NCBI RefSeq assembly: GCF_004022215.1
Contig: NZ_SAUZ01000001.1
Coordinates: 186,001-250,000, forward strand
Length of the DNA stretch: 64,000 nucleotides
Direction: 5' to 3'
Source of the DNA: Paenirhodobacter populi
Lineage (GTDB): Bacteria > Pseudomonadota > Alphaproteobacteria > Rhodobacterales > Rhodobacteraceae
How positions within the stretch are numbered: position 1 is the stretch's first letter; each line of letters starts with the position of its first letter. Positions 48,210 through 63,547 of this stretch are shown one piece after another. A program made the translations under genes and the position numbers. Below the pieces are notes generated by a model. That model was not told the DNA's origin. It worked only from the letters and a program-made list of their open reading frames with translations, and made no database searches.

Positions 48210-49103
48210 TCATTCCAGATGGCGTCGGGCGGTCGCGATGATGCTTTTCGTCAGGGGCGCGAGCTCTCTGGCCGCCAGCCGGTTCACCTGCCAGTAGAGG
48301 GCGCGGTCGAGGCAGGCGCCCGGAACCAGTTCGACCAGCCTTCCGGCGCTCAGATGGTCCCGGACGAGCGGGGCGGGGTTCAGCGCCCATCCCATTCCCG
48401 CCAGACTGGCCGCGACGAAGCCCTGGGTCGAGGGCAGCCAGTGGGTGGGATGATCGACCGTTCCGCCCAGAACCTGCCGTATCCAGTCCTGCTGGAGCGT
48501 GTCCTTGTGGTTGAAGGTGATCGCCGGGGCCTGCGACATCGCTTCGCGCGTCACGCCGTGGGGGAAATGACGCGCGACGAAATCGGGGCTGGCCGTCGCA
48601 TGGTAGCGCAGCCTGCCCAAGGCCTTGGTCTGGCACCCCTGAACCGGGGTCGGCAAGGTGGTGACGGCCGCCAGAACCCGCCCGCGCCGCAGCCAGTCCG
48701 CGGTATGATCCTCATCATCGAGGGCCACGTTCAGCAGATAGCCGGTGTTCCGGGCAAATTCCGAAATCGCCGGCAGGAACCATGTGCCGAGGCTGTCGGC
48801 ATTGGTGGCGATGTTCAGGGTGACGCGCTGTGGGGATGCGGTATCCGCGAGACCCGGCAGATGCTCCATCAGCCCCTTTTCAAGCATTCCCACATGCTCG
48901 ACATGGCGGCAGAGCCAGGCGCCCTTTTCGGTGGCGGTGCAGGGCGTGCCCCTTTCGATCAGCACGGTGCCAAGGCGTTCCTCCAGCAGTTTCACCCGCT
49001 GGGAAACGGCGGAAGGCGTGATGTTCAGCGCCCGCGCGGCCTTTTCGAAGCTGCCGGTCTGCACGATCATGGCGACGGCGCGCGCGGCGGGATAATCGAT
49101 CAT
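48210..49103 (-). CDS. argP: LysR-family regulator ArgP/LysG
   Basis: 297 residues. Winged helix YPAARAVAMIVQTGSFEKAARALNITPSAVSQRVKLLEERLGTVLIERGTPCTATEKG as in ArgP/LysG. Divergent from the LysE/ArgO exporter gene with a 102-base gap, the classical lysG-lysE arrangement in which the regulator senses lysine or arginine and turns on the exporter. Confidence 0.93.
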   Translation of the reverse strand: MIDYPAARAVAMIVQTGSFEKAARALNITPSAVSQRVKLLEERLGTVLIERGTPCTATEKGAWLCRHVEHVGMLEKGLMEHLPGLADTASPQRVTLNIATNADSLGTWFLPAISEFARNTGYLLNVALDDEDHTADWLRRGRVLAAVTTLPTPVQGCQTKALGRLRYHATASPDFVARHFPHGVTREAMSQAPAITFNHKDTLQQDWIRQVLGGTVDHPTHWLPSTQGFVAASLAGMGWALNPAPLVRDHLSAGRLVELVPGACLDRALYWQVNRLAARELAPLTKSIIATARRHLE

Positions 49104-49205
49104 CCGGATCAGTTTCTCTTAGTCTGGGTTAATCTATTTAATTTTCCTAACTAAACCATCTCCTCTAAAGCAGGCAAGAGCGGCGGCAGAAGGCGTTTTC
49201 CTGCG
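49104..49205. promoter_or_regulatory. AT-rich divergent promoter of argP and argO
   Basis: 49117-49165 is AT-rich in a GC-rich genome and contains TTAGTCTGGGTTAATCTA, TTAATTTTCCTAA and ACTAAACC, several T-N11-A spaced pairs suitable for a LysR-type regulator. Exact operator not resolvable by eye. Confidence 0.5.
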
Positions 49206-49850: not shown

Positions 49851-50537
49851 TCACGTATCGGCGGCACCTGCTGCCGGATAGGGCAGCGGCACGGTGAACA
49901 TCCTTGCGGAACAGCATATCGCCTGCCCCCGGGGGATAAGCGCGCTGAACGCCCTGTCGCTCACGGCCAGTCCGCCGGTATAGGCGCCGAAGGCCGGCAG
50001 GATCAGATGCTCCCGCCCCAGAACGAAGCAGCGCCAGCTCCGCCCGGCAAGCCGCACGACGGGATGCAGATGTCCCGAAATATCCGGACCCTCGCCGGCG
50101 ATATGCCGCAGCGCGATGCCCTCATGCAGGTCGGGCACGCTCCGCCCCGGCAAGTCGGGACCGGGGGCAAGGCGATCGTGGTTGCCCGCGATCCAGATCC
50201 AGTCCCGCCCCCGCGCCAGCTGCCAGAGCTTGCCCCGCGCTTCCCCGTCGATCGTTTCGGCGGCGAGATCGTCGTCGAATCCGTCACCCAGCGAAACCAC
50301 CCGCCCGGGATCCAGCGCCGCGATCTCGGCCCCCAGCCGGTCGAGCGTGTCGGCGACATCCCAGGGCGGCAGCAGCGGCCCGCCGCGGCGGGCATAACGC
50401 CCGGAGCGTCCCAGATGCAGGTCGGAAACGATCAGCGTCCGGCGATCCGGCCACCACAGCGCGCCCGAGGGGCGGGCGACGAAACCGGCCCCGGCGAGGC
50501 GCAGGGCCAGACCGGCAGATGGGTCAACGGTCGTCAT
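49851..50537 (-). CDS. pdeM: ligase-associated metallophosphoesterase PdeM
   Basis: 228 residues, calcineurin-like phosphoesterase fold. Motifs: VSDLHLGRSG, LGDGFDDDLA, IAGNHDRLAPG, GEGPDISGHLHPVVRL, the full dimetal set. Last gene of the four-gene ligase-associated repair operon, overlapping the helicase end by 14 bases. In the family it is proposed as a nuclease in DNA damage response. Confidence 0.93.
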   Translation of the reverse strand: MTTVDPSAGLALRLAGAGFVARPSGALWWPDRRTLIVSDLHLGRSGRYARRGGPLLPPWDVADTLDRLGAEIAALDPGRVVSLGDGFDDDLAAETIDGEARGKLWQLARGRDWIWIAGNHDRLAPGPDLPGRSVPDLHEGIALRHIAGEGPDISGHLHPVVRLAGRSWRCFVLGREHLILPAFGAYTGGLAVSDRAFSALIPRGQAICCSARMFTVPLPYPAAGAADT

Positions 50538-52926
50538 GCGTCAGATCGTCCAGTCCCGCGCTTGCCATCAGCTCCCGCGCCATGCGTTCCGCCAGCATTT
50601 CCTGTCCCGCTCCGCCAAGCCTGACGCGCCCCATCTCCAGCAGCAGCGGCGCGGCCAGCGGCGAGACGCGGTCCAGCCGGTGCAGCTCGACATGGGGATT
50701 GCGGGCCAGCATGTCATCTATCCGCTCGAAATCGATGAAGCCATGCCGGGCCTCGTCCCGCGTGGCGCGCAGAAGGATGTGGTCGGGGTCGTGGCGGCGC
50801 AAGGTGTCATGGATGATGTCGCTGGAAAACGTCGCCTGCCGCCCGCTCTGCCGGTGCCCCGGCACGTTGCGCTGGATCAGCCCGGCGATGGTCGCCACCG
50901 CGCGGAAGCTGCGCTTCATCAGCGACGTGTCCGCGAACCAGTTTTCCAGCCCCTGTTCCAGCGCCGGGCGGCGCAGCAGCGGCGCCACATCCCCGACCGG
51001 GTTCAGCGAGGTGATCAGCAGGGCATGATCCGTCGCAAGGAAGCCAAGCGGCGCCAGACCCGCCGCCTCCATCTGCCGGGTCACCAGCAGACCCAGCGTC
51101 TGATGCGCGTTGCGGCCGGCGAAGCCGTAGATCACCAGATGCCAGCGGTCGTTGCGCGGGAAGGTTTCGCAGACCAGCGTGCCGGGACGGGGCAGGGCGC
51201 TGACGCGGGCCTGCAGGTCGAGCCAGGCGCGGATGTCGCCGGGCAGCTCGCGATGGCGGGCGGGATCGGCGATGATCGCCAGCATCCGGGCCGAAAGCTC
51301 GGTCGAGGTGGCGAATTTCAGCCCGGAAAAGACCGCGATCTTCGGCTCGCGCCCGGGCTGGGGCGTGACCTCCATCACCAGATCGCGGATGCGGTCGTAG
51401 CGCAGGACCTGTCCGCCCAGCAGGAAGGTGTCGCCGGGGGCGAGGGTGGCGGCGAAGCTTTCCTCGACCTCTCCCAACGCCGCGCCGCCCCGGCCACGGC
51501 GGCGGACCTTGAGCTTTTCGGCCTCGACGATGGTGCCGATGTTCATGCGCAGGTTGCGCGCGGCCCGGGGGTCGCGCAACTGCCAGCGCCCGTCGCGCAG
51601 CATCAGCCTTTGCCAGCGGTCATAGGCGCGCAGGGCATAGCCGCCGGTCGCCGCGAAATCGAGGCAGGCGTCGAAATCCGCCCGAGAAAGGCCCGCGTAG
51701 GGGCCGGCGGTGCGGACCTCGGCATACAGCGCATCGGCCTCGAACGGGCCGGCGCAGGCGGTCAGCAGGATGTGCTGGATCAGCACGTCGAGCGGGCCGG
51801 GGCCGCGCGGTTCGCCGTCCAGCTCGCCCGCCCGGGCGGCCTCGAGCGCGGCGACGCATTCGATCACCTCGAAGCGGTTGGCCGCCACGATCCGCGCCCG
51901 CGACGGCGCGTTGTAGCGGTGATTGGCGCGGCCGATCCGCTGCACCAGCCGCTTGATGTTGCGCGGCGCGCCGACCTGAATGACCAGATCCACATCGCCC
52001 CAGTCGATCCCCAGATCGAGGCTGCCGGTCGCCACCACCGCGCGCAGCGTGCCCGCGGCCATCGCCGCCTCGACCCGCTGGCGCGCCTCGCGCGCGAGCG
52101 CGCCGTGATGCAGGCCGATGGGCAGGCCCCGGTCGTTCGCCAGCCACAGCGCCTGAAAGAACAGCTCGGCCTGCGCGCGGGTGTTGAGAAAGATGATCGT
52201 CGTCCGCGCTTCCGCCACGGCGTCGAGCACGTCCTGCACCGCGTAGCGTCCGCCGCCGCCCGACCATGGCGGCGGGGTCCGGGTCGGCAGCAGGGCGATG
52301 TCGGGCGTCGGGCCCGGATCGGCCTCGATCACCCGCGCGGCGCCCATGAACCGGGCCAGCGCCTGCGGATCCTCGACCGTGGCCGAAAGCCCCGTGGCGA
52401 CCAGCCCCGGCGCAAGGCCGCGCAACCGCGCAAGGCCGAGCATCAGCTGATCGCCGCGCTTCGATTCCGCCAGCGCGTGCAATTCGTCCAGAACCACGCG
52501 CCTGAGGCCCGCGAACAGTTTCGGCGCCTCCGGCCAGGACAGCATCAGGGCGAGCGATTCCGGCGTCGTCAGCAGAATTTCCGGCGGATCGGCGCGCTGT
52601 CTCTGGCGCACGCCGGCGGGGGTGTCGCCGGTGCGGTCGCCCACCCGCACCGCAAGCCCGATGCCCTCGATCGGCCGCGCGAGGTTGCGCGCGACATCCG
52701 CCGTCAGCGCCTTCAGCGGCGAGACGTAAAGCGTATGCAGACCTTTCCGCCCGGTCTGGTGGAGATCGACCAGCGACGGCAGGAATCCCGCCAGCGTCTT
52801 GCCGCCCCCGGTCGGTGCGATCAGCAGCGTATCCTCCCGCGCCGCCAGCAGCGCCAGCTGATGCGGATGCGGGTCCCAGCCGTTGCGGGCGAACCAGTCG
52901 GCGAAGGCGGGGGGCAGCGCGGTCAC
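50524..52926 (-). CDS. ligase-associated DEXH-box helicase (Lhr-like)
   Basis: 800 residues from the GTG at 52926, which overlaps the ligase stop (GTGA). Lhr-core SF2 helicase: WDPHPHQLALLAAREDTLLIAPTGGGKTLAGFLPSL (Q motif and Walker A), VVLDELHALAESKRGDQL (DExH, motif II), GLSATVEDP (motif III), IIFLNTRAQAELFFQAL, LRAVVATGSLDLGIDWGDVDLVIQVGAPRNIKRLVQRIGRANHR (motifs V-VI). A much longer frame upstream (to 53808) is antisense read-through of the ligase. Acts in DNA repair with the other three genes. Confidence 0.94.
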   Translation of the reverse strand: MTALPPAFADWFARNGWDPHPHQLALLAAREDTLLIAPTGGGKTLAGFLPSLVDLHQTGRKGLHTLYVSPLKALTADVARNLARPIEGIGLAVRVGDRTGDTPAGVRQRQRADPPEILLTTPESLALMLSWPEAPKLFAGLRRVVLDELHALAESKRGDQLMLGLARLRGLAPGLVATGLSATVEDPQALARFMGAARVIEADPGPTPDIALLPTRTPPPWSGGGGRYAVQDVLDAVAEARTTIIFLNTRAQAELFFQALWLANDRGLPIGLHHGALAREARQRVEAAMAAGTLRAVVATGSLDLGIDWGDVDLVIQVGAPRNIKRLVQRIGRANHRYNAPSRARIVAANRFEVIECVAALEAARAGELDGEPRGPGPLDVLIQHILLTACAGPFEADALYAEVRTAGPYAGLSRADFDACLDFAATGGYALRAYDRWQRLMLRDGRWQLRDPRAARNLRMNIGTIVEAEKLKVRRRGRGGAALGEVEESFAATLAPGDTFLLGGQVLRYDRIRDLVMEVTPQPGREPKIAVFSGLKFATSTELSARMLAIIADPARHRELPGDIRAWLDLQARVSALPRPGTLVCETFPRNDRWHLVIYGFAGRNAHQTLGLLVTRQMEAAGLAPLGFLATDHALLITSLNPVGDVAPLLRRPALEQGLENWFADTSLMKRSFRAVATIAGLIQRNVPGHRQSGRQATFSSDIIHDTLRRHDPDHILLRATRDEARHGFIDFERIDDMLARNPHVELHRLDRVSPLAAPLLLEMGRVRLGGAGQEMLAERMARELMASAGLDDLTHDDR

Positions 52927-54476
52927 AGCATCGCCTTCAGGGTTTCCAGATGGTCGGCCTCGGCCGCGGGCTTGTCCCAGCGGATGCGCGATATGCGCGG
53001 GAACCGCATCGCGATGCCCGAGCGGTGGCGGCCGGAACGGTTCAGCCCCTCGAACGCCACCTCGACCACCAGCAGCGGTGCGACCTGCCGCACGGGGCCG
53101 AAACGTTGAACGGTATTCTTGCGCACGAAACGGTCCAACTCGCGCAGTTCCTCGTCGGTGAAGCCGAAATAGGCCTTGCCGACCGGGACCAGATCCGCCC
53201 CGTCCCACAGGCCGAAGGTGAAATCGCTGTAAAAGCCCGAGCGTTTGCCATGCCCGCTCTGGGCATAGAGAAGCACCGCGTCGATCACCATCGGATCGCG
53301 CTTCCACTTGAACCAGGGGCCACGGGGGCGGCCGGCGATATAGGGCGTGTCGCGGCGCTTGAGCATCACCCCCTCGATCACCGGCGCAGGCGGCGCGGCG
53401 CGCAGGCGGGTGATGTCCTCCCATGCCGCGAAAGGCAGGATCGGCGACAGGTCGATGCGCTCGCGGGGAAAGCGCGCGGCCTCGAGCCGCGCGCGGCGTT
53501 CGGTCAGGGGCAGGGGGCGGAGATCTGCGCCCTCCCATGTCAGGATGTCGTAGAGCCGCAGGGTCGCCGGATGGCTTTGCAGCAGGACCCGGCCGATGGT
53601 CTTGCGCCCGAGTCGCCGTTGCAGATCGGCGAAAGGCGCAACCTCGGTCCCGCGCCGGATCAGCAGTTCGCCATCCACCGCGCCCTCGAAATCCATCGCC
53701 TCGATGATATCCGGGAAGGCGGCGCCGATCTCTTCCCCGGTGCGGGAATAGAGCCGCCGCAGCCCGCCCTCGGCCACCGCCTGCACGCGGATGCCGTCCC
53801 ATTTCCATTCGGCGAGGTAATCGGCGGGGTTCAGGGGGGCAAGCTCGGCGGGCGTGACCGGGGTCGACAGCATCACCGGCCGGAACGGCGCGGCCGAGGC
53901 GGGTTCAGGGCGGGCGCCGCCCGAAAGCCAGGCGAAAAGCGGCAGGTAGGGCGGCTCCAGCCCGTGCCAGATCTCTTCTATCTCCTCGACGCCGCGGGGG
54001 CCGGTCTGCGCCAGCGCGATGCGGGCCAGCCGCGCCGAAACGCCGACGCGCAGGTTTCCGGTGGCAAGCTTGAGGAAAGCCAGCCGCTCGGGCGGGGTCA
54101 GGCGGTCGAGCATCGCGGCGATCGCGGCGGGCAGCGCCAGCTTGCCGGTTTCACGCAGGATGCCGACCGCCTGCGACAGGGAAACCTCGGGACCGGGCGC
54201 GGGGACGGCGGGCCAGATCAGCGCGATGGTTTCCGCCAGATCGCCGACGAAATCGTAGGACAGCGCGAACAGCCGTTCGTCCACCCGCTCCCCCGCCAGC
54301 CGCCGCAACAGCGAGGGCGAGACCTGCCGCAGATCCAGCGTGCCGGTCAGCGCGGCCAGCGCCCAGCCCCGGTCGGGATCGGGCGTGGCCTCCAGATAAT
54401 GCGACAGGATCGTCAGCTTGGCGTTCCGGCCCGCGGTGAAGGCCAGCCGTTCCAGAAGGCGCGCGAAGGCTTTCAT
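52923..54476 (-). CDS. ATP-dependent DNA ligase (cisATP-type, LigB/LigC-like)
   Basis: 517 residues. N-terminal DNA-binding domain, then the nucleotidyl-transferase domain with adenylated lysine in YLAEWKWDGIRVQAVAEG (motif KxDG form KWDG), YSRTGEEIGAAFPDI (motif III), AVDGELLIR (motif IV), EGVMLKRRDTPYIAGRPRGPWFKWKRD (motifs V-Va) and OB fold. The operon context marks it as the alphaproteobacterial ligase-associated repair enzyme. Overlaps both neighbours by four bases. Confidence 0.96.
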   Translation of the reverse strand: MKAFARLLERLAFTAGRNAKLTILSHYLEATPDPDRGWALAALTGTLDLRQVSPSLLRRLAGERVDERLFALSYDFVGDLAETIALIWPAVPAPGPEVSLSQAVGILRETGKLALPAAIAAMLDRLTPPERLAFLKLATGNLRVGVSARLARIALAQTGPRGVEEIEEIWHGLEPPYLPLFAWLSGGARPEPASAAPFRPVMLSTPVTPAELAPLNPADYLAEWKWDGIRVQAVAEGGLRRLYSRTGEEIGAAFPDIIEAMDFEGAVDGELLIRRGTEVAPFADLQRRLGRKTIGRVLLQSHPATLRLYDILTWEGADLRPLPLTERRARLEAARFPRERIDLSPILPFAAWEDITRLRAAPPAPVIEGVMLKRRDTPYIAGRPRGPWFKWKRDPMVIDAVLLYAQSGHGKRSGFYSDFTFGLWDGADLVPVGKAYFGFTDEELRELDRFVRKNTVQRFGPVRQVAPLLVVEVAFEGLNRSGRHRSGIAMRFPRISRIRWDKPAAEADHLETLKAML

Positions 54477-55465
54477 TCCGGCTCGTCCTCATATCCGACC
54501 AGACGCAGCGGGCGGGCGGGGAGGCCTTGCAGTTCGCACCAGCGCATCAGCCCGTCCTCGGTGCCGTGGGTGATCCAGACCTCCTGCGGGGCGAGGTCTT
54601 GCAGCGTCGCGGTGAGCTGCGGCCAGTCGACGTGGTCGCTGATGACCAGCGGCAGCTCGATCCCCCTCTGGCGCGCCCGCGCCCGCACCGTCATCCAGCC
54701 CGAGGCGTAGCACAGCACCGGATCGCGGAACCGCTGCACCCAGGGCGAGGCAAAGGCCGAGGGCGGGGCGAGGATCAGCCGCGCCTCCTCGGGGTCCGTC
54801 GCGGGCACCAGCGGGCCAAGGTCGATGCCCTGTTCGACATGATAGTCGCACAGCCGTTTCAGCGCGCCGTGGATGGCGATGGGCGCGTCATGCCCGGCCG
54901 CGCGGGCCAGCGCGATCACCCGTTGCGCCTTGCCAAGCGCATAGGCCCCGACCAGATGCGGCCGGTCGGGAAATTCCGCCATGCTGGCGATCAGCCGTTC
55001 GGTTTCGGCCAGCGGATCGGGATGGCGAAAGATCGGCAGGCCGAAGGTCGCCTCGGTGATGAAGATATCGCAGGCGACCGGCTCCCACGGCAGGCAGGTG
55101 GGGTTCGGCGTGCGGCAGTAATCGCCGGAAATCAGGACGCGCGGGCCGTTGTCCGGCGCGATCAGGATCTGCGCCGATCCGAGGACATGGCCCGCGGGAT
55201 GGAAGCTGACCGTCACATCGCCGATCCGCAGGGGGCCGTCGGCGATCTGGCGGCGGGAGGTGAAATCCTCGCCGTAGCGGATCGCCATGATGTCGAGCGT
55301 CTGGCGCGTGGCCAGCACCGCGCCATGGCCGGGGCGGGCATGGTCGGCATGGCCGTGCGTGATCAGCGCGCGTGGAACCGGGCGGAGCGGGTCGATGTGA
55401 AAACCGCCGGGCGGGCAGTAAAGCCCCGCCTCGGTCGGGCAGACGATCTCTTCCGGCCGGATCAT
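54473..55465 (-). CDS. ligase-associated DNA exonuclease (metallo-beta-lactamase fold)
   Basis: 330 residues from ATG 55465. MBL fold with LITHGHADHARPGHGAVLA (HxHxDH), FHPAGHVLGSAQI, LISGDYCRTPNPTCLPWEPVACDIFITEATFGLP, LVISDHVDWPQL and ITHGTEDGL as in beta-CASP/SNM1-like nucleases. First gene of the four-gene operon, overlapping the ligase start by four bases. The longer frame upstream of 55465 is not homologous. Confidence 0.94.
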   Translation of the reverse strand: MIRPEEIVCPTEAGLYCPPGGFHIDPLRPVPRALITHGHADHARPGHGAVLATRQTLDIMAIRYGEDFTSRRQIADGPLRIGDVTVSFHPAGHVLGSAQILIAPDNGPRVLISGDYCRTPNPTCLPWEPVACDIFITEATFGLPIFRHPDPLAETERLIASMAEFPDRPHLVGAYALGKAQRVIALARAAGHDAPIAIHGALKRLCDYHVEQGIDLGPLVPATDPEEARLILAPPSAFASPWVQRFRDPVLCYASGWMTVRARARQRGIELPLVISDHVDWPQLTATLQDLAPQEVWITHGTEDGLMRWCELQGLPARPLRLVGYEDEPE

Positions 55466-55540: not shown

Positions 55541-55580
55541 TCGTTCCGGACGGAGAACGACCGGCCGGAGGAACGGTTCC
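55541..55580. promoter_or_regulatory. two small dyads in the exonuclease / glycosyltransferase divergent gap
   Basis: TCGTTC/GAACGA with an eight-base spacer (55541-55560) and GGAACGGTTCC (55570-55580), 76-115 bases upstream of the exonuclease start. Candidate operator sites; they lack the direct GTTC-N7-GTTC spacing of an alphaproteobacterial LexA box. Nothing else stands out in the 278-base gap. Confidence 0.3.
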
Positions 55581-55743
55581 AAAAGGGGCGGGTCGGTTCC
55601 CCGGACGCCACGCAAGACGCCCCCGGAACCGGACAGCCCTCATGGCGTTATGACATGAGCCCGAGGGGCACCTGCTATCACAATAAGGAAACGATGCGTG
55701 CCACCCCATGAAAATGGGGAGTGGTTCTGTGTGGGAGTGAAGG

Positions 55744-57249
55744 ATGAATCTCGCCTCTTTCAGCAAGGGACCCGAGGGCGGAAGGCTCCCCGTGACGCTC
55801 GCATTGTTGGGGGCCTTGTGCCTCGTTTCGATCGTGTGTCTTTATCCGGTCATCCTCGCGACGATTTCGTTTCTGGCGCAAGTATCGCTGTTTATCCTCA
55901 ATGGCATCGCCGCGCTGCTGGCGCATCGGGGCGATGCGGGCATTCCCGTCGCCATCGAGGCGCAGTCCGAGGGGCTGGTCTTTTCCGTGCATGTGCCGAC
56001 CCATGACGAGCCCCCGCATCTTGTGATCGCGACGCTCGCCGCGCTGCGGGCGCAGAAAAACGCGCCGCCCTACGAGGTCATCGTGATCGACAACAATACC
56101 AGGGATCCGGCGGTCTGGTTGCCGGTGGAACAATGGTGCCGGGAAAACCCGCTCTTTCGGTTCCTGCACAGGGAGGGCGTGGTGGGGGCAAAGGCCGGTG
56201 CGCTCAATATCGCGCTGGCGCAGAGCCGCCCGGACGCCACCCATATCGTCACGGTCGATGCCGATTATCAGGTCCAGCCCGACTTCCTGACGGTCGCGGC
56301 GGCGGAGATCGCGGCGCGGCGGGTCGATTTCGTGCAGTTTCCGCAGGCCTATCGCTGTTGCGACGCGGCGGGGTCGGGAATCGCGCTGGAGCTGTCCGAT
56401 TATTTCGACCGTCACGCCCGCGCCGCCAACCGGGCGGATGCGATGCTGCTGACCGGCACGCTGAGCGTCATCCGCAAGGAGGCGCTCCTGGAGGTCGGCG
56501 GCTGGTCCGCCCGCACCGCCACCGAGGATGCGGAGCTGGGATTGCGGCTTTGCGAGGCGGGCTTTCGCGGCGCTTTCGCCCGGCAGGTCGTGGGGCGCGG
56601 CCTCTTGCCCCTGACGCTGAATGCGCTGCATCGCCAGCGGTTCAGATGGGCTTCGGGCAATATGCGCACGCTGTTGCTGTGGCTGTCGGGACGGACGACC
56701 GGCGCGGCGCGGCCGCGGCTGGCGCGGCAGGTTCTGGCGGCGACGCAACTGACCGCCTGGGTGAACTTCGCGCTGCCTGCGGCCCTGGCGCTGCTGATCT
56801 CGGCGGTGCAGATGGCCGCGCATGTGCCGGCCGGGGCGCAGGGCGCCGCGATCGCCTTTGCGACCTTGCTGCTTGTGATGGCCTCGGCGGCAATTCCGCT
56901 GGTCGTCGCGGGCAACGGCAGCATGGCGCATGTCGCAACCGCGGTCTCTACCCGCATCGCCTTGCTGCCCACCGCCGCCGCCGCGACGGTCGCGGGCATG
57001 TTCCCCGGCGTTCAGGTTTTCAGGGTGACGCCGAAGGCGATCTGCGGCGCGCGCGGCAAGGCCGACCCGCCCGTGGCGATGATCGTCGCCTCTGTCTGCG
57101 GTGTCGGGCTGGTGGCGGCGGGGCTGGCGATGGGGTCGCTGCCGCTGACGGGCGGCGGGGTCTTGCTGCTCCTGCCGCTGCTGGCCGCGGGGCTCACCGC
57201 CCGGGGGCTGGCCGGTTACGCCTCGGTCCTGCGCATGAGGGAGGTCTGA
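55744..57249 (+). CDS. membrane glycosyltransferase family 2 (processive, cellulose synthase-like)
   Basis: 501 residues. Two N-terminal membrane helices (residues 15-60), a cytoplasmic GT-A domain with FSVHVPTHDEPPHLVIATLAALRAQ, the nucleotide and metal site VTVDADYQVQPDFL, the TED motif RTATEDAELGLRLCEAGF and QRFRW, then four to five C-terminal helices. D, DxD, TED, QxxRW are all present, so it should be a processive or lipid-linked glycosyltransferase at the inner membrane. First gene of a seven-gene operon; GTGAAGG before the ATG. The sugar is unknown. Confidence 0.88.
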   Translation: MNLASFSKGPEGGRLPVTLALLGALCLVSIVCLYPVILATISFLAQVSLFILNGIAALLAHRGDAGIPVAIEAQSEGLVFSVHVPTHDEPPHLVIATLAALRAQKNAPPYEVIVIDNNTRDPAVWLPVEQWCRENPLFRFLHREGVVGAKAGALNIALAQSRPDATHIVTVDADYQVQPDFLTVAAAEIAARRVDFVQFPQAYRCCDAAGSGIALELSDYFDRHARAANRADAMLLTGTLSVIRKEALLEVGGWSARTATEDAELGLRLCEAGFRGAFARQVVGRGLLPLTLNALHRQRFRWASGNMRTLLLWLSGRTTGAARPRLARQVLAATQLTAWVNFALPAALALLISAVQMAAHVPAGAQGAAIAFATLLLVMASAAIPLVVAGNGSMAHVATAVSTRIALLPTAAAATVAGMFPGVQVFRVTPKAICGARGKADPPVAMIVASVCGVGLVAAGLAMGSLPLTGGGVLLLLPLLAAGLTARGLAGYASVLRMREV

Positions 57250-57250
57250 C

Positions 57251-58192
57251 ATGGTGTTTCCCGCCGCCGTCGTCATCCCGACATGGAACCGCGCGCATCT
57301 GATCGCCAAGGCGGTCGAGGCCGCTTTGGCGCAATCACATCCGGACAGGGTGATCGTCGTCGTGGATGACGGATCGACCGACGGGACCCGTGCCGCGCTT
57401 TCCCCCTATCTCGCCCATCCGGATGTCGTGCTGGTCGAGCTGGCGCAGAACGCGGGCACCGCGCAGGCGAAGAACGTGGGCATCCTGCTGGCCGCCGGCC
57501 GCGCGGTGACGTTTCACGATTCCGACGACCTGCCGCACCGCGACAAGGTGCTGCGGCAGGCGCTGGTGATGGCGCGCGGGGATGTCGGCGCGGATCCCTG
57601 CCTGAACTGGGCGCTTGCCGGGCAGACCCCCGGCGGCACGCTGCGGATCGGCGCGGTGCTGCATCACCATGCCCTTGTCCTGCCCGATGGCCGCCGGGTG
57701 GAGATCACGCGCGAGCTTTCGCTGATCGACGACATGTTCCCGAACTTGCAGATGGGATCGGAGGTGCCGGGCGACTGGACGCATGTCAACTCGGGCCTGT
57801 TCCACCCCGATCTGTTCGCCCGCCTTGGCGGTTTCATCGACGGGATCGAGGAGGACAGGGAGTTCCGCAACCGCGTGATCCTGTCGGGGGAAATCGTGTG
57901 GATGATCCGCGACGTGCTGATGACCAAGATCGAGACCCCGGATTCCCTCTCGCAGTCGCGGGCGACGGGTTATGACAGCGACCGCCGCAGGCGGGACCGG
58001 GAGGAGGTCTGGTCGCGGATCGACCACTGGCTCAGGACCCGTCAGGTGCAGCCGGTGGAGATCGATCTGGGCGATCTCGGCATTTCGCGGATATCGAATG
58101 CGGGCCGCGTCGGGCTGTCGGATGCGCTGGCGACGGCGCGGTCGCGCGAAACCGTCCGGCGGGCGATTGCGCGGGGGATGGACAATGGCTGA
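57251..58192 (+). CDS. glycosyltransferase family 2, soluble
   Basis: 313 residues, GT-A fold: VVIPTWNRAHLIAKAVEAALAQSHPDRVIVVVDDGSTDGTRAAL, TAQAKNVGILLAAGRAVTFHDSDDLPHRDKV with the metal-binding DSDD. The C-terminal third is family-specific. One base after the preceding stop; overlaps the next gene by eight bases. Acceptor and donor unknown. Confidence 0.85.
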   Translation: MVFPAAVVIPTWNRAHLIAKAVEAALAQSHPDRVIVVVDDGSTDGTRAALSPYLAHPDVVLVELAQNAGTAQAKNVGILLAAGRAVTFHDSDDLPHRDKVLRQALVMARGDVGADPCLNWALAGQTPGGTLRIGAVLHHHALVLPDGRRVEITRELSLIDDMFPNLQMGSEVPGDWTHVNSGLFHPDLFARLGGFIDGIEEDREFRNRVILSGEIVWMIRDVLMTKIETPDSLSQSRATGYDSDRRRRDREEVWSRIDHWLRTRQVQPVEIDLGDLGISRISNAGRVGLSDALATARSRETVRRAIARGMDNG

Positions 58193-59225
58193 CCTCCGGA
58201 TCGTGGATCCCTGCGCGCCGCGACCCTACGACACGGTGCAGTCCCTGCGCGGTCTGGGCGGGACCGAGGCGACCGTCCTGCGCATCGCGAACGCCTTGTC
58301 GGGTGAGCTTGACGTGGTGATCGAGCAGGCCACGCGGTCGTCTTCGCTCCGCCTCGACGGGGTCAGGTTCCGGCCGATGGATCTGGCCGTGCCTCTGGGC
58401 CGGGTCATCGTGGTGATCAACGCATGGAAGGTCGCCCTGCGCCTGCGCCGCACCAATCCCGATGCGCGGATCTGCCTGTGGCTGCATGTCCATCCCGGCC
58501 GGCACAACCGGCAGATGGGGCAGCGCCTGCGCGAGGCGGATATCGCCGTCATCTGCGTTTCGCGCAGCCATGCCGGGACGCTGAGCCGTTTTCTGCCCGT
58601 GCGGCCCCGAACGGGCTTCATCCACAACCCGGTGTCGGACGATCTGCGCCCTGATGACACCCCGCGCGACAGGGACCGGCTGGTGTTCGCCAGCTCGCCC
58701 CACAAGGGCCTGCCTGAGGTCGTGCGGATCTTCTACGAGGCACGGCGCGTCCTTCCGGGGCTGAAGCTCGTTCTGGCGAATCCGGGGTATCTGCGCTGGC
58801 CCATGCCGCTGCTGCCGACGGGCACGCTGGTGCGCGGGTCCCTGACGCATGACGAGGTGATCGCCGAATTCCGCCGCTCGCTATGCCTGTTCTATCCGCA
58901 AAGCGGGTTCGCCGAGACCTTCGGGCTGGTGATCGCCGAGGCGAATGCCGTGGGCTGCCCGGCCCTGCTGCACGGCGACATCGGCGCCAATCGAGAGATC
59001 GCCTCGACCCCGGATCAATGCGTGGATGCCGGGGATCTGGACGCCATCCTCGCACGGCTGACCGAATGGCGCGCCGCGCCGCCGCGCATTGGCGTCAGGC
59101 CCGAATTCCGGCTGTCCGCGGTGGCATCCGTGTGGCTCGACATGGTGAGGTCCGGGGATGGCGCGCTCCCCGGTGCCGATGCCGTGGAAGGCCAGTTCAC
59201 CGCGCGCGAGGGGGCCGGGTCATGA
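58185..59225 (+). CDS. glycosyltransferase family 4-like
   Basis: 346 residues from ATG 58185. GT-B type: LRGLGGTEATVLRIANALSGELDV near the N-terminus, ICVSRSHAGTLSRFLPVRP, VFASSPHKGLPEVVRIFYEARRVLPGLKLVLANPG, LCLFYPQSGFAETFGLVIAEANAVGCPALLHGDIGANRE, the E-x7-E region of GT4. The nested start avoids a long non-homologous extension. Overlaps both neighbours. Confidence 0.82.
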   Translation: MADLRIVDPCAPRPYDTVQSLRGLGGTEATVLRIANALSGELDVVIEQATRSSSLRLDGVRFRPMDLAVPLGRVIVVINAWKVALRLRRTNPDARICLWLHVHPGRHNRQMGQRLREADIAVICVSRSHAGTLSRFLPVRPRTGFIHNPVSDDLRPDDTPRDRDRLVFASSPHKGLPEVVRIFYEARRVLPGLKLVLANPGYLRWPMPLLPTGTLVRGSLTHDEVIAEFRRSLCLFYPQSGFAETFGLVIAEANAVGCPALLHGDIGANREIASTPDQCVDAGDLDAILARLTEWRAAPPRIGVRPEFRLSAVASVWLDMVRSGDGALPGADAVEGQFTAREGAGS

Positions 59226-60316
59226 ATTTCCCCCGCAGCCGGCAGATGGAACGCTTTGGAAACCAGTCGGGCTGGCGGGTGGCCGTGGTGATCCCGGCCC
59301 GCAACGAACAGGACCGCATCCGGGGCTGCCTAGATGCCCTTGCCGCAAGCCTTGCGCGGGCGCGCTGCCCGGGCGGTATCGTTCTTGTGGTCAACAACAC
59401 CGATGACGCGACCGCCGCGATCGCGCGTGACTGGTGGGGGGCGCATCCCGACAGTCCGGGGATCCTGCTCGACTGCGAAAGCCCCGCGGATCAGGCCGGC
59501 GTGGGCTGGGCGCGCCGGCAGGGGCTGGACGCCGCCTCCGCGCAATTGCCGCAAGACGGCAACCTGATGACCTCGGACGCCGATGCGCGTGTCGATCCGG
59601 GCTGGGTCGCGGCGAATCTTGCCGAACTCACACAGGCCGATCTGATCTGCGGCACGGTCCGCCCGATGGAGGCGGAACTGTCCCGCCTTCCCGACGCCTT
59701 CGGCCGCCACGGCCCGCGCGAGGGCGCCTATATGCAGGCGATCGTGCGGCTGATCTCGACGCTCGATCCGCAGCCGCATGATCCCGCCCCCGCGCATCGC
59801 AACGCCGCCGGGGCGAGCCTTGCGTTTTCCGCGCGGCTTCATGCCGATGTGGGCGGTATGCCCTGCCTGCCGATCCGCGAGGACCGGGTGTTCGTCGGGA
59901 ATGCCGAGGCGCGCGACTGGCGCATCCGATATGCCGGCGCCCCCGTCGTTCTGGCGTCCTGCCGGCTGACCGGCCGGACCGGGGGCGGCATGGCCGCGGC
60001 GCTCCGCGCGCGCATCGAGGAGGACGATCCGCTGTGCGACGAGTTGCTGGAACCCGCCCGGACGGCCTTGCTGCGCTATGGGCTGAAGGGGCAGTTGCGG
60101 CGGTCATGGCCGGATGGGGCGCTGGTCGGGGTGCTGACGCCGCACCTTCCGCCGGGGCGTGATCGAGGCGGGCATTTCGGCGCCTTCTGGCGGCTGGTCG
60201 AGAATGCCCTGCCCGGGCTGCGGCCCGTCCGCCTGCGGCAAAGCGATCTGCCCGCGCAGCAGAAGATCCTGAACGACTGGTTCGCCGGGCAGCCCCCCGG
60301 CAGGGAGAGGACATGA
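59222..60316 (+). CDS. glycosyltransferase family 2
   Basis: 364 residues. WRVAVVIPARNEQDRIRGCLDALAASLARARC, VVNNTDDATAAIARDWW, LMTSDADARVDPGWVAANL (DxD-type), GASLAFSARLHADVGGMPCLPIREDRVFVG. Similar to GT2 proteins that sit next to PIG-L deacetylases and acyl-CoA dehydrogenases in other alphaproteobacteria. ATGA overlap with both neighbours. Confidence 0.82.
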   Translation: MNFPRSRQMERFGNQSGWRVAVVIPARNEQDRIRGCLDALAASLARARCPGGIVLVVNNTDDATAAIARDWWGAHPDSPGILLDCESPADQAGVGWARRQGLDAASAQLPQDGNLMTSDADARVDPGWVAANLAELTQADLICGTVRPMEAELSRLPDAFGRHGPREGAYMQAIVRLISTLDPQPHDPAPAHRNAAGASLAFSARLHADVGGMPCLPIREDRVFVGNAEARDWRIRYAGAPVVLASCRLTGRTGGGMAAALRARIEEDDPLCDELLEPARTALLRYGLKGQLRRSWPDGALVGVLTPHLPPGRDRGGHFGAFWRLVENALPGLRPVRLRQSDLPAQQKILNDWFAGQPPGRERT

Positions 60317-61356
60317 CAGGGATTGCCGCGGTCATGGATGCAATCGCCGCGCGGGCCGGGGATGCCGATCAGGGCAGGGCCGGTCTGGACGCGGATATCC
60401 GGCTGCTCTTTGTGTCGGGCGTGCTTGAACGGCTTGTCGCCACCGCCTCGGGTTCCCGGGTGCGCGAGGCGGTCACGCTCTTTCGTTCGCTGGGGCGCGC
60501 GAGCCTGTCCGTCGGGCGGCTGGCCGAGGGACATGTGAACGCGCTGCGCCTGATCGATCTGTATGGGAGCGAGGATCAGATCGCCCGCTTCCGCATGGCC
60601 GCGGCAGATGGGGAACTGTTCGGCGTCTGGGGGGCCGAGGGGGCGGTCGCCGTCTCGATCGAGAGGACCGATGGTCAGGTCGCCCGTCTGGCGGGCGGCA
60701 AGCGGTTCTGTTCCGGCCTCGGTCTGGTGCGCCACGCGGTGGTGACGGCGCGTGGCGAAGAGGGGGTTCAGCTTGTCATCGTGGATGCGGGGGATCCGCG
60801 GCGTCAGGATGCCTCGGGCTGGAAGACGACCGGGATGCGGGCCACGGAATCGGGATCTTACGACCTGAACGGAATCCGCGGCGAACTGCTTGGCAAGCCC
60901 GGCGATTACCTGCGCGAACCGTGGTTCGAGGGCGGTATCTGGCGCTATGCGGCGCTGCATTGCGGCGCGCTCGAAGCCCTGGCCGACGCGGTGCGCGACC
61001 GGGTGGCGATGCTCGACGATCCCGGCCCGATGCGGGCGGCGCGGCTGGTCGAGCTGACCCGCCTTGCGCAGACGGCGCGGCTTTGGGTCGAACATGCCGC
61101 CGGGGCGGTCGAGGCGGCCGACTCGCCGGATATCGTCGCGGCCCTTCTGGCGCGGGAGGCGGTGGAAGAGGCCTGCCTGCGCGGGATCGCCATCGCGGAC
61201 AGGGCACTGGGCACGCGGGCCTTCATGGAGGGGACCGCGGTCGAACGGATCCGGCGCGATCTGGCCTTCTTCCTGCGTCAGGCCAATCTGGACGGAAAGA
61301 CGCAACTGGCGGCGCGCCTGATCCTGAACCGCGCCCGCGATGGGGGATCCACATGA
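60313..61356 (+). CDS. acyl-CoA dehydrogenase family protein, short form
   Basis: 347 residues, shorter than typical acyl-CoA dehydrogenases (about 380) and weakly conserved. The middle beta domain (GELFGVWGAEGAVAVSIERTDGQVARLAGGKRFCSGLGLVRHAVVTA) and C-terminal helical bundle are recognisable; a catalytic glutamate cannot be assigned. In this cluster it may desaturate or oxidise a carrier-bound or nucleotide-sugar-linked acyl or amine; this is inference. Four-base overlaps on both sides. Confidence 0.72.
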   Translation: MTGIAAVMDAIAARAGDADQGRAGLDADIRLLFVSGVLERLVATASGSRVREAVTLFRSLGRASLSVGRLAEGHVNALRLIDLYGSEDQIARFRMAAADGELFGVWGAEGAVAVSIERTDGQVARLAGGKRFCSGLGLVRHAVVTARGEEGVQLVIVDAGDPRRQDASGWKTTGMRATESGSYDLNGIRGELLGKPGDYLREPWFEGGIWRYAALHCGALEALADAVRDRVAMLDDPGPMRAARLVELTRLAQTARLWVEHAAGAVEAADSPDIVAALLAREAVEEACLRGIAIADRALGTRAFMEGTAVERIRRDLAFFLRQANLDGKTQLAARLILNRARDGGST

Positions 61357-62069
61357 TCAGCGCCTTCCTTCGCCACGCGGGCCGCGCCCCGCTTGTCGCC
61401 GCCGACGAGATCGCCGGAGGCGGCAATGTCCTGCTGCTGGCGCCGCATCCAGATGACGAGACGCTTGGCTGCGGCCAGCTGATCGCGGCGCTGACCCGAC
61501 AGGGGGTCACGGTGCAGGTGGCCGTCGTGACGGATGGCGGGGCCTCGCATCCCCGCTCGCGCCTCTGGCCGCGCGAGAGGCTGGCGGCGCTGCGGGCCGC
61601 CGAGGTGCGCGAGGCCATTGCCCTGATCGGGGGCGGGCAGGCGCCGCCGCCCGTCCTGCTCGGTTATCCCGATCTGGCGGCCCCGGATGATCCGGCCGCG
61701 CGCGCCGAGGCGGTTGCGAGAATATGGGCATCAAGGCCCGGAAACTGCCGCGCCGTCCTGTCGACGTGGGAGGGCGATCCCCACCCGGATCATCAGCGCG
61801 TCGCGAAAATCGCGCGGCTGCTGTGCGCGCAGTCGCCGGGGTTGTCGCATTGGGCCTATCCCGTCTGGGGACGTTTTGAACAGGCGGTGCCGCAGGGGCG
61901 GATGGTCCGCTTCGACGATCCCCTGCTGCACGCTCTGAAGGCCCGCGCGCTGGCCGCGCACAAAAGCCAGATGACGGACCTTGTGCCGGACGATCCCACC
62001 GGCTTCGTGATGCCCGCGGACCAGCAGAGGCATTTCCTGACCCATCCGGAGATCTTCCTCCATGTCTGA
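61353..62069 (+). CDS. PIG-L family N-deacetylase
   Basis: 238 residues. Zinc motif LLLAPHPDDETLGCGQLIAAL (His32, Asp34-Asp35-Glu36) and WEGDPHPDHQRVAKIARLL supplying the third ligand. PIG-L/LmbE enzymes deacetylate N-acetylglucosamine on lipid, inositol or glycan carriers. Overlaps the methyltransferase by eight bases. The active site looks intact. Confidence 0.88.
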   Translation: MISAFLRHAGRAPLVAADEIAGGGNVLLLAPHPDDETLGCGQLIAALTRQGVTVQVAVVTDGGASHPRSRLWPRERLAALRAAEVREAIALIGGGQAPPPVLLGYPDLAAPDDPAARAEAVARIWASRPGNCRAVLSTWEGDPHPDHQRVAKIARLLCAQSPGLSHWAYPVWGRFEQAVPQGRMVRFDDPLLHALKARALAAHKSQMTDLVPDDPTGFVMPADQQRHFLTHPEIFLHV

Positions 62070-62652
62070 GGATTTCCTCTCTCGCCGGCAGGCGCATTTC
62101 GACGCGCTCTATCGGGCGAACCCGGACCCGTGGGGCTATCGAACCAGCCGCTATGAGCAGGAGAAATACGAGGCCACGCTGGCCGCGCTGCCGGCAAAAC
62201 GCTATCGCGCGGCGATCGAGGTTGGCTGTTCCATCGGCGTGCTGACGGAAATGATCGCCGGCCGGGCCGACGCCGTGACCGGGATCGACCTGTCGGAACA
62301 TGCGATCGCGCTGGCGCGCAGGCGGCTGGCGCATCGCCCGGACATACATCTGATCCGCGGTTCCGTGCCCGCCGACTGGCCGGGGGGAGTCTGGGATCTG
62401 ATCCTCCTTTCGGAGGTTCTTTACTATCTGTCGGCAGCGGAGATCGGGGATCTGGCCCGCAAGACCGCCGCATCCGCCCTGCCGGGGGCGCATTGCATCC
62501 TCGTGAACTGGAGGGGCAAGACCGACACGTCATGGCGCGGACCGGAGGCCGCGGAGGAATTTCTGAACTGCCTCGCCGCGCGGGCACGCCTTGCGGATCG
62601 CATGAGCCTGCGGAAGGAGATGTTCACGATCGACCGGGTGACGCTTGCCTGA
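62062..62652 (+). CDS. SAM-dependent methyltransferase, NodS-like
   Basis: 196 residues. Begins SRRQAHFDALYRANPDPWGYRTSRYEQEKYEATLAAL, the NodS-family lead sequence, then SAM motif I AIEVGCSIGVLTEMIAGRADAVTGIDLSEHAIALARRRL and DLILLSEVLYYLS. NodS methylates the deacetylated amino sugar of Nod factors; here it directly follows a PIG-L deacetylase, suggesting N-methylation of a de-N-acetylated sugar. Last gene of the operon. Confidence 0.85.
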   Translation: MSEDFLSRRQAHFDALYRANPDPWGYRTSRYEQEKYEATLAALPAKRYRAAIEVGCSIGVLTEMIAGRADAVTGIDLSEHAIALARRRLAHRPDIHLIRGSVPADWPGGVWDLILLSEVLYYLSAAEIGDLARKTAASALPGAHCILVNWRGKTDTSWRGPEAAEEFLNCLAARARLADRMSLRKEMFTIDRVTLA

Positions 62653-63350
62653 CCATGGGCGGCGCTCCACGGTGGTTTTCGGCGAGACGGTCTGTCGGCG
62701 GTGCCGGGTGGCGGCGAGGCCTACTACCTCGTCGATGTCGTTGAATCGGATCGGTCGCTGCGGACGTCCTGCCCGGTGGGCGTGCGGGAACGTCCGGAAG
62801 GATCCGCCATCGGGCTGGTGTTTCCGGCCTTCATGCCCGGGCTGGCAAAGAACGTTCCGAGGCGGATGGGCCGAGCCCCGACATCGGGCAGGAGATCTTC
62901 CGCGTCGGGACCACGGGCTTCGCGCTCGATCCGGAGAATTGCGAATCCGGCCTGACCTGCGCCGGGGTGCGGCAACGCCTTGGCCGCCGTCGCGGCAACG
63001 CGGGGCGTTCTGGCGATCACGCAATGCGGCCTGCACGCGGTCGCCCGGCCCCGCAGGGCAACCGATCGATCGCAGGGCAGGCAGGGCACCATTGCCGGAG
63101 ATGACGTTCGGGCTATCTGTCGGGTGTGAGGCATAGGAGGACGACCCCGGAGAGGGTGCGCGGCATGCGGTGATATGTCGCGCCTGCGCGGCGCGTCAAA
63201 CGGCGGGATGCCCGCGTCGATCCGGTCTTCATCCTCCGCCCGGCAAGGACGGGAATCGGCCCCGCCGGGCGGCGCGGATCGGTGGTTCGTCCGCGCCGGG
63301 AAGGGGGATTCGGCGCTGCGGCGCTGCGGATGCGGAAAACCGTCATCTGC

Positions 63351-63366
63351 GATAAATATTTTATAT
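63351..63366. promoter_or_regulatory. AT-rich palindrome island upstream of nuoA
   Basis: GATAAATATTTTATATC contains ATAAA-TAT-TTTAT arms (63352-63364), striking within a GC-rich gap, about 180 bases before nuoA. May be a promoter element or a nucleoid-protein site. Confidence 0.3.
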
Positions 63367-63467
63367 CGTTTGCTTTTCCAGCCCGGATTCGCCGCCCATC
63401 CACGGCCCGGGATGGGGTTTCGTCCGGATTCTGGTATGCTTTTCATCGGCAAAATGCGGCGTTCCGG

Positions 63468-63494
63468 TTGACCTGACAGGGGGCCGCAGATAAT
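63468..63494 (+). promoter_or_regulatory. candidate housekeeping promoter of the nuo operon
   Basis: TTGACC at 63468-63473 and GATAAT at 63489-63494 resemble -35 and -10 boxes, although 15 bases apart is short (an offset TAATGC gives 17). Located 54-80 bases before nuoA. Confidence 0.35.
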
Positions 63495-63547
63495 GCTCTC
63501 CTTAGCCGGAACCTGCGCGATGATTTGTCGCGACCTGAGGGAGCCAA

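Follow-up and report, generated by a model that had tools for sequence, protein, structure and literature searches.

The 64,000-nucleotide stretch of the Paenirhodobacter populi genome analysed here (contig NZ_SAUZ01000001.1, positions 186,001 to 250,000; hereafter the window) carries a closely packed operon of seven genes, which we examine as a candidate pathway to a modified amino sugar. All seven open reading frames (ORFs) were found at window positions 55744..62652 (Table 1), and the gaps between them, read off the sequence, are +1, -8, -4, -4, -4 and -8 bases, just as the first-pass annotation of this DNA had described them. Its listing of one membrane GT2 glycosyltransferase, two soluble GT2 enzymes and one GT4 enzyme also agrees with Pfam and hydropathy. 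Genes 1, 2 and 4 have a GT2 match, and gene 3 falls in the GT1 group (PF00534) at 27.3 bits, barely above the cut-off of 26.4. The product of gene 1 shows six hydrophobic stretches; those of genes 2 to 7 look soluble, with one marginal hydrophobic stretch in that of gene 3. Genes 5, 6 and 7 encode a protein with the fold of acyl-CoA dehydrogenases, a PIG-L deacetylase and a NodS-like methyltransferase. Below, we argue that genes 4 to 7 are the conserved core of this operon, and that this core may be a stress-induced cassette for a small glycoside.

Table 1. Features of the operon and of the gap upstream of it, in window coordinates.
Feature	Position	Strand	Basis
Gene 1 (GT2m), membrane-associated GT2 glycosyltransferase, 501 aa; lineage-specific addition	55744..57249	+	Pfam, hydropathy
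Gene 2 (GT2a), soluble GT2 glycosyltransferase, 313 aa; addition	57251..58192	+	Pfam
Gene 3, GT4-type glycosyltransferase, 346 aa; addition	58185..59225	+	Pfam
Gene 4 (GT2b), core soluble GT2, 364 aa	59222..60316	+	Pfam, alignment
Gene 5, core acyl-CoA-dehydrogenase-fold protein, 347 aa; predicted flavin monooxygenase	60313..61356	+	profile, alignment, model
Gene 6, core PIG-L (LmbE) zinc de-N-acetylase, 238 aa	61353..62069	+	Pfam, alignment
Gene 7, core NodS-like S-adenosylmethionine methyltransferase, 196 aa	62062..62652	+	Pfam, NCBIfam, profile
Predicted EcfG-type promoter GGAAC-N16-CGTT, 94 bp upstream of GT2m	55625..55649	+	motif search
Second predicted EcfG-type promoter, divergent, ~90 bp upstream of the exonuclease (chosen start 55465)	55556..55580	-	
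Exonuclease of ligase-associated DNA damage response (TIGR04122), with which the divergent repair module starts; outside the cassette	54473..55465	-	

A conserved four-gene core

Relatives of gene 5 were compared in three sets of loci. At E ≤ 1e-12 they occur in 6 of 385 genomes of the same class and 33 of 398 genomes of the same phylum, its own genome being counted in both. The first set holds 34 loci outside that genome, 14 from its own class and 20 from other classes of Pseudomonadota. The second consists of the best 80 of 328 gene 5 relatives found in 84,980 genomes. With phyla assigned from the entry titles (one alphaproteobacterial entry is titled just 'bacterium'), it comprises 39 Alphaproteobacteria, 26 Cyanobacteria, 14 Bacteroidota (12 of them Hymenobacter) and one Puniceicoccaceae metagenome-assembled genome (MAG), a mix that follows from search patterns made from alphaproteobacterial members and is not a measure of prevalence. 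The third is a set of 19 annotated records, Deinococcus and Acinetobacter included. With the window's own locus, 134 loci were compared, and 22 of the 73 plasmid records and one of the two 'phage' records with a match were inspected. Numbers such as L082 are our locus labels.

Within the 34-locus set, gene 5 is accompanied by a PIG-L gene at 29 loci, by a NodS-like methyltransferase at 32 and by the core GT2 at 27. All four genes stand together at 24/34 loci, at 59/80 loci and in 16/19 annotated records, and, if the GT2 is disregarded, the other three stand together at 69 of the 80 loci. The core was found in Pseudomonadota, Cyanobacteria, Bacteroidota, Deinococcus and one verrucomicrobial MAG; when neighbouring ORFs of the 134 loci were clustered, the core families alone recurred across all groups formed. 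Since the four recur together across phyla, their arrangement is not due to chance, and the first-pass annotation, for which a lack of joint conservation elsewhere would have counted against the proposal, is not refuted on this point. Judged by these neighbourhoods, the conserved unit is a set of four genes (soluble GT2, oxygenase-like gene 5, PIG-L and NodS-like methyltransferase) and not the set of seven from which that annotation had started. The stretches read at L104-L106, L128, L134 and L159 (Methylobacterium/Methylorubrum) have the oxygenase with no PIG-L or methyltransferase gene nearby.

By the same comparison, GT2m, GT2a and GT4 are lineage additions to the core. At E ≤ 1e-10, homologues of the three were found at one of the other 133 loci, on the p1 plasmid of Paracoccus sediminicola, which is also the single recurrence of the full seven-gene set. 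There the genes run GT2m-GT2a-GT4-oxygenase-PIG-L-methyltransferase-GT2b, with a DUF892 gene next in line, and GT2a and GT4 are 56.8% and 47.5% identical to their window counterparts.

The extra glycosyltransferases raise the alternative of a cassette that modifies a surface glycan or glycolipid, in the envelope or an exopolysaccharide, which the membrane GT2 and its companions would assemble. The membrane GT2 and two further glycosyltransferases of the window and of P. sediminicola p1 are consistent with this, as are GT4 and GT-A genes ahead of the core in Novosphingobium and Sphingobium, a UDP-galactopyranose mutase that follows the core in 2/3 Deinococcus records, and distant GT2-like and GT4 families that recur beside the core at 31 and 33 of the 134 loci, nearly all alphaproteobacterial. 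However, the membrane GT2 is confined to that one other locus, and none of the four core proteins of the window has a membrane-like segment (among relatives, 2/63 GT2 and 5/69 PIG-L proteins do). Nor was a glycan flippase or polymerase seen among the representatives scanned for ten of the recurrent neighbour clusters: they are a histidine kinase, a short-chain dehydrogenase/reductase, two glycosyltransferases, an RND pump, an FtsW/RodA-type protein, an ABC ATPase and three without a match. Envelope decoration is thus a real contender that we hold, on balance, to be unlikely. The FtsW/RodA-type family lies near the cassette at 11 of the 14 Bacteroidota loci.

Gene 5 as a putative flavin monooxygenase

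Gene 5 had been called acyl-CoA-dehydrogenase-like, and its relatives in the records inspected are labelled acyl-CoA dehydrogenase or uncharacterised. We propose that this is a mis-annotation and that gene 5 most likely encodes a flavin monooxygenase. The protein has no Pfam match at E ≤ 0.001, and its NCBIfam matches, SfnB at 30 bits and the monooxygenase DszC at 23 bits, lie far under cut-off. A family profile of 34 relatives, run against PDB sequences, matched 57 of them, the top five being DszC (4.5e-22), TdsC (2.6e-19) and MsuC (2.5e-18). Next are 5z8t and 5gj7 (5e-16), named acyl-CoA dehydrogenase type 2, of which 5z8t is titled flavin-containing monooxygenase in the Foldseek listing. 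Entries 3m9v/4kcf (1e-13), named FAD (flavin adenine dinucleotide)-dependent oxidoreductase and presumably KijD3, also rank above the canonical dehydrogenases, the first of which is tenth (3.4e-12). In the profile alignment, the catalytic His and Ser of DszC are matched by a His of the family's EGH motif and a Ser of its K..CSG motif; the His is invariant in 61/61 members, and the Ser position holds Ser in 51/61 and Thr in 10/61.

A genuine acyl-CoA dehydrogenase that shapes the acyl group of a glycolipid would share the overall fold found by Foldseek, and some gene 5 relatives do match Pfam dehydrogenase domains. Yet when one true dehydrogenase (from L086) was added to the 61-member alignment, the column of its catalytic Glu (at YEGT), flanked in the family by an invariant RDL and LRQ stretch, was found to hold P, A or G in 61/61 members. 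Furthermore, at the Glu position of isovaleryl-type dehydrogenases, located by eye, Glu stands in just 2/34 and 1/61 members. With monooxygenases also outranking dehydrogenases in the profile ranking, we consider such a dehydrogenase improbable. Of the first-pass assignment, the fold therefore stands, and the acyl-CoA role is not supported. The structure prediction that it had suggested, in search of a catalytic base and pocket, gave an AlphaFold model of good quality (predicted local distance difference test score 88.9).

Compared with DszC, TdsC and MsuC, gene 5 shares the fold, the aligned His and Ser positions and the lack of the dehydrogenase Glu. It differs in length (347 aa, whereas the solved chains have ~400-450), in its own invariant residues within EGHxxA, W106 and RDLxxYLRQ, and in being embedded among GT2, PIG-L and methyltransferase genes. 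The sugar N-oxygenases KijD3 (presumably 3m9v/4kcf), nitrososynthase and DnmZ are more distant relatives. Deinococcus offers a hint of a sugar substrate for the oxygenase: on all three plasmids inspected of the eight that matched (L077, L084 and L092), the gene 5 relative has an N-terminal extension of ~400 residues. By eye, this region resembles a glycoside hydrolase of clan A, and the two of the three extensions that were translated show NE and ETG motifs; Pfam glycoside hydrolase matches are sub-threshold in 2/3, and the one extension searched gave no PDB match.

The other core enzymes

Gene 6 matches Pfam PIG-L at 81 bits and is the sole such match at E ≤ 1e-5 in its genome. The AHPDDE motif reported in the first-pass annotation is indeed intact and is joined by an HPDH motif; H32, D34, D35, H144 and H147, which have metal-binding and catalytic roles, are invariant in all 29 proteins aligned. 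Its closest solved relatives are TT1542 and diacetylchitobiose deacetylases, followed by a BshB-type malate-glycoside deacetylase. All of these act on small glycosides, and such nearness, together with the catalase genes that adjoin the cassette in some records, would suit a small redox or cofactor-like glycoside in the manner of mycothiol or bacillithiol, that is, an amino glycoside made by a glycosyltransferase and a PIG-L enzyme with intact motif (as MshB and BshB are), then further modified and kept inside the cell as a stress metabolite. However, gene 6 scores 36.7, 35.4 and 19.6 bits against BshB/MshB models with cut-offs of 182.5, 195.25 and 224.35, the cassette adds an oxygenase and a methyltransferase to that scheme, and a thiol-adding enzyme is annotated in none of the cassettes inspected. 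This makes a product of that type, in our estimate, quite unlikely.

The NodS-like character of gene 7 holds in Pfam (59.8 bits, cut-off 24). NodS is the N-methyltransferase of Nod factor synthesis, and its structure 3ofj is the second-best solved relative of the gene 7 family profile (5e-30); nearer still is 4isc (1e-68), listed merely as 'Methyltransferase'. In the core GT2, D119, D121, E220 and D221, which form the DxD and ED motifs, are invariant in 37/37 members, and a single GT2 (6yv7 and related entries) is all that the family matches among solved structures at E ≤ 1e-6. The combination of a NodS-like methyltransferase, a deacetylase and GT2 enzymes in one operon had led the first-pass annotation to reason by analogy with Nod factors, whose synthesis includes the processive GT2 NodC. 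The evidence does not support a Nod-type product or processive polymer: gene 7 reaches 66.8 bits against a cut-off of 300 in the NCBIfam NodS model NF041650, the membrane GT2, with its single other locus, reaches 46.4 against 550 for NodC, and the core is present in cyanobacteria, Hymenobacter and Deinococcus. A lipochitooligosaccharide signal of the Nod type is accordingly highly improbable. A search for NodA gave no match in this genome, nor did it in the control genomes, and so says nothing either way.

A likely link to the general stress response

Between the exonuclease and gene 1 lie 278 bases, in which the exact motif GGAAC-N16-CGTT occurs twice, once in each orientation. Genome-wide, this exact motif is barely enriched, with 76 occurrences in 4.78 Mb against 64 for a reversed control pattern; one of the 76 lies upstream of a PhyR-like gene adjoining NepR. 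The latter scores 52.8 bits (cut-off 25.7), and the PhyR-like and sigma-like ORFs next to it were recognised by eye. The EcfG motif is given in the literature as GGAAC-N17-20-GTT (PMC6599016). We used a relaxed form, GGAAC-N16-20-GTT, and found it at most 115 bases from the first cassette gene in 5/14 annotated alphaproteobacterial records, these being 5/5 of the Rhodobacterales, and in 4/4 further Rhodobacterales plasmid records, thus 9/9 in all. It should be noted that the first five loci were drawn after inspection, so that just the later four are independent of that choice, and that the records include three Sulfitobacter and five Paracoccus, which are not independent lineages. Before other genes of the same nine records the motif occurs in 4/74 cases, one of them treZ, the control genes having been listed by hand, to the exclusion of genes that were cut, those of the cassette, a few that are close-packed and three Sulfitobacter catalases that also bear the motif. 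At L052 the motif lies at 141 bases from a gene start that is uncertain. Predicted EcfG control of the cassette is thus supported in Rhodobacterales only, and the first-pass statement that no regulator is linked to the operon needs correcting.

A second line of evidence comes from neighbouring genes. Beside many of the cassettes on annotated plasmids lie genes for catalase, manganese catalase, universal stress protein, Dps, Ku, LigD, treZ, DUF892 or a general stress protein; none of these adjoins the cassette in the other annotated records inspected. Markers picked from the plasmid neighbourhoods were then tested on other genomes. At least one of catalase, Ku/LigD, TreZ-like and ferritin-like was found at 15/34 loci against 1/40 control stretches drawn from 26 of the 34 case genomes (Fisher p=2e-5), and by genus, with labels copied by hand, at 11/23 against 1/19 (p=0.005). 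With a coverage filter the counts are 15/34 and 0/40. Some of the matches are weak, namely three of the four to manganese catalase (79-111 bits) and one to DUF892 (47 bits), and those to TreZ (~355 bits, four genomes of one genus) may represent other enzymes of the superfamily. At L054, L057, L059 and L065, all of one genus, two PIG-L genes are present at the cassette and a TreZ-like gene lies ~9 kb away. Among the Deinococcus records, catalase and Dps lie near the cassette in one of three and in neither of the other two. A genomic stress link is clear within Pseudomonadota and not in other groups.

Expression data are available for Acinetobacter baumannii, where RNA-seq of two colistin-dependent mutants showed ACICU_02432-02435 to be down 31-62 fold, a drop shared by a catalase and by trehalose-6-phosphate synthase and phosphatase (PMC5660220). 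The four genes are described there as glycosyltransferase, methyltransferase, LmbE and dehydrogenase-related and marked as one operon (PMC5660220); their match to the cassette rests on gene order and naming rather than on alignment. Genes of the same four kinds are listed side by side in the surroundings of Acinetobacter blsA, with no function proposed for them in the passages concerned (PMC6240043, PMC9020721). Locus L082 has these genes in the same order, but carries a short variant of the GT2; a ycgF-annotated gene sits there where the papers put the BLUF gene blsA. Its contig is deposited as 'Acinetobacter phage MD-2021a' and contains ordinary bacterial genes, the cassette included, so that it looks like host DNA. 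Taken together, the cassette looks tied to the general stress response in several bacteria.

Proposed pathway

From these enzyme families we infer the substrate, the order of steps and the product as follows. Transcribed from the predicted EcfG (PhyR/NepR) promoter, the soluble GT2 would join an N-acetylamino sugar to an acceptor, and the PIG-L enzyme, given its intact active site, would take off the acetyl group to leave a free amine. Gene 5, as a reduced-flavin-dependent monooxygenase, would then oxygenate the sugar, perhaps on the freed nitrogen, and the NodS-like enzyme would methylate the product, that nitrogen or a neighbouring position being the most likely site, because NodS is the closest relative of known role to gene 7. 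The product would probably be either a small glycoside or a glycolipid head group with a protective role; a small size is suggested because the window's core proteins look soluble and because no polymerase, lipid-carrier enzyme or glycan flippase is among the recurrent neighbour families identified. In P. populi, the two further soluble glycosyltransferases and the membrane enzyme may extend or place this product. Overall, we put the chance of a stress-induced cassette for a small de-N-acetylated, oxygenated and methylated amino-sugar glycoside, belonging to the general stress regulon at least in Rhodobacterales, only slightly short of even. The first-pass proposal of a de-N-acetylated, N-methylated and possibly acylated or oxidised glycan probably holds for deacetylation, methylation and oxidation, and loses the part that rested on acyl-CoA. 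A more specific form, in which the freed amine is N-oxygenated (to hydroxylamine, oxime, nitroso or nitro) and methylated, as a stress metabolite in at least five bacterial phyla, strikes us as rather unlikely.

Several observations weigh against the small-glycoside proposal. As for the chemistry, no known substrate was found for any enzyme of this family, and the amino sugar is our deduction. Foldseek of the gene 5 model matches dehydrogenases and monooxygenases alike, and does not separate them. Nitrososynthase (3mxl, 1.4e-9) and DnmZ (1.7e-9), both oxygenases of sugar nitrogens, rank under more than a dozen dehydrogenases, so the ranking does not favour N-oxygenation as such. A flavin reductase is not linked in the window operon, and seven are found elsewhere in the genome. 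Furthermore, PIG-L is missing, with oxygenase and methyltransferase kept, at 5/34 and 5/80 loci, and the oxygenase is alone in the stretch read at 6/80, all Methylobacterium/Methylorubrum; the enzyme steps therefore possibly form no single obligatory chain. As for the stress link, the relaxed motif occurs in 0/9 of the annotated alphaproteobacterial records outside Rhodobacterales and is lacking at L051, a genome of the window's family. The strict motif was also considered as a general feature of alphaproteobacterial cassettes and rejected, with 3/67 on the same strand and 7/67 on the opposite one. Coverage-filtered markers are present at merely 16 of the 80 loci, a set without matched controls, and divide into 12/39 alphaproteobacterial, 4/26 cyanobacterial, 0/14 Bacteroidota and 0/1 verrucomicrobial loci. 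Lastly, a neighbouring DUF2171 gene is up in colistin-resistant A. baumannii strains (PMC6330354), and the direction of the expression change is therefore not fixed.

Genomic surroundings of the operon

Divergent from the operon lies a ligase-associated DNA damage response module (49851-55465) with PdeM, a helicase region, a cisplatin-type ligase and the exonuclease. Among the 134 loci, exonuclease, ligase, helicase and PdeM stand alongside the cassette at the window's own only, a comparison that says nothing for the helicase, whose query was an imprecise frame with four stops. No match to the exonuclease at E ≤ 1e-60 turned up in the 17 congeners searched. Further out, a 311-aa ORF at 48219-49151 has no Pfam match at E ≤ 0.001 and no relative at E ≤ 1e-30 in the same 17. 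On the other side, no gene was recognised by eye in the ~900 bases (62653-63547) between the operon and nuoA, which is present in 18/18 genomes of the genus. Gene 5 itself finds just weak matches (~1e-8) in two of the 17 congeners. With the left-flank ORF and the exonuclease in 0/17, the accessory stretch extends past the region compared, and no empty site is drawn.

Implications

A literature search, preprints excepted, found no characterised pathway of this gene composition, in line with the first-pass annotation. Each enzyme family is known, and amino-glycoside pathways that pair a glycosyltransferase with a PIG-L enzyme are of a known kind; here they come with an oxygenase and a methyltransferase. 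If our proposal is true, the 328 relatives from the 84,980-genome scan would carry a mis-annotated pathway to a sugar product, part of these pathways adjoining catalase, DNA-end-joining or trehalose genes. In a study of EcfG in Sphingomonas melonis, ~40% of the EcfG-dependent genes are without specific function (PMC6599016). The cassette would then be a handle on this blank part of the general stress response, as well as a new place for sugar oxygenases. If N-oxygenation also proved true, N-oxygenated sugars would be a general stress product, and not just decorations of antibiotics.

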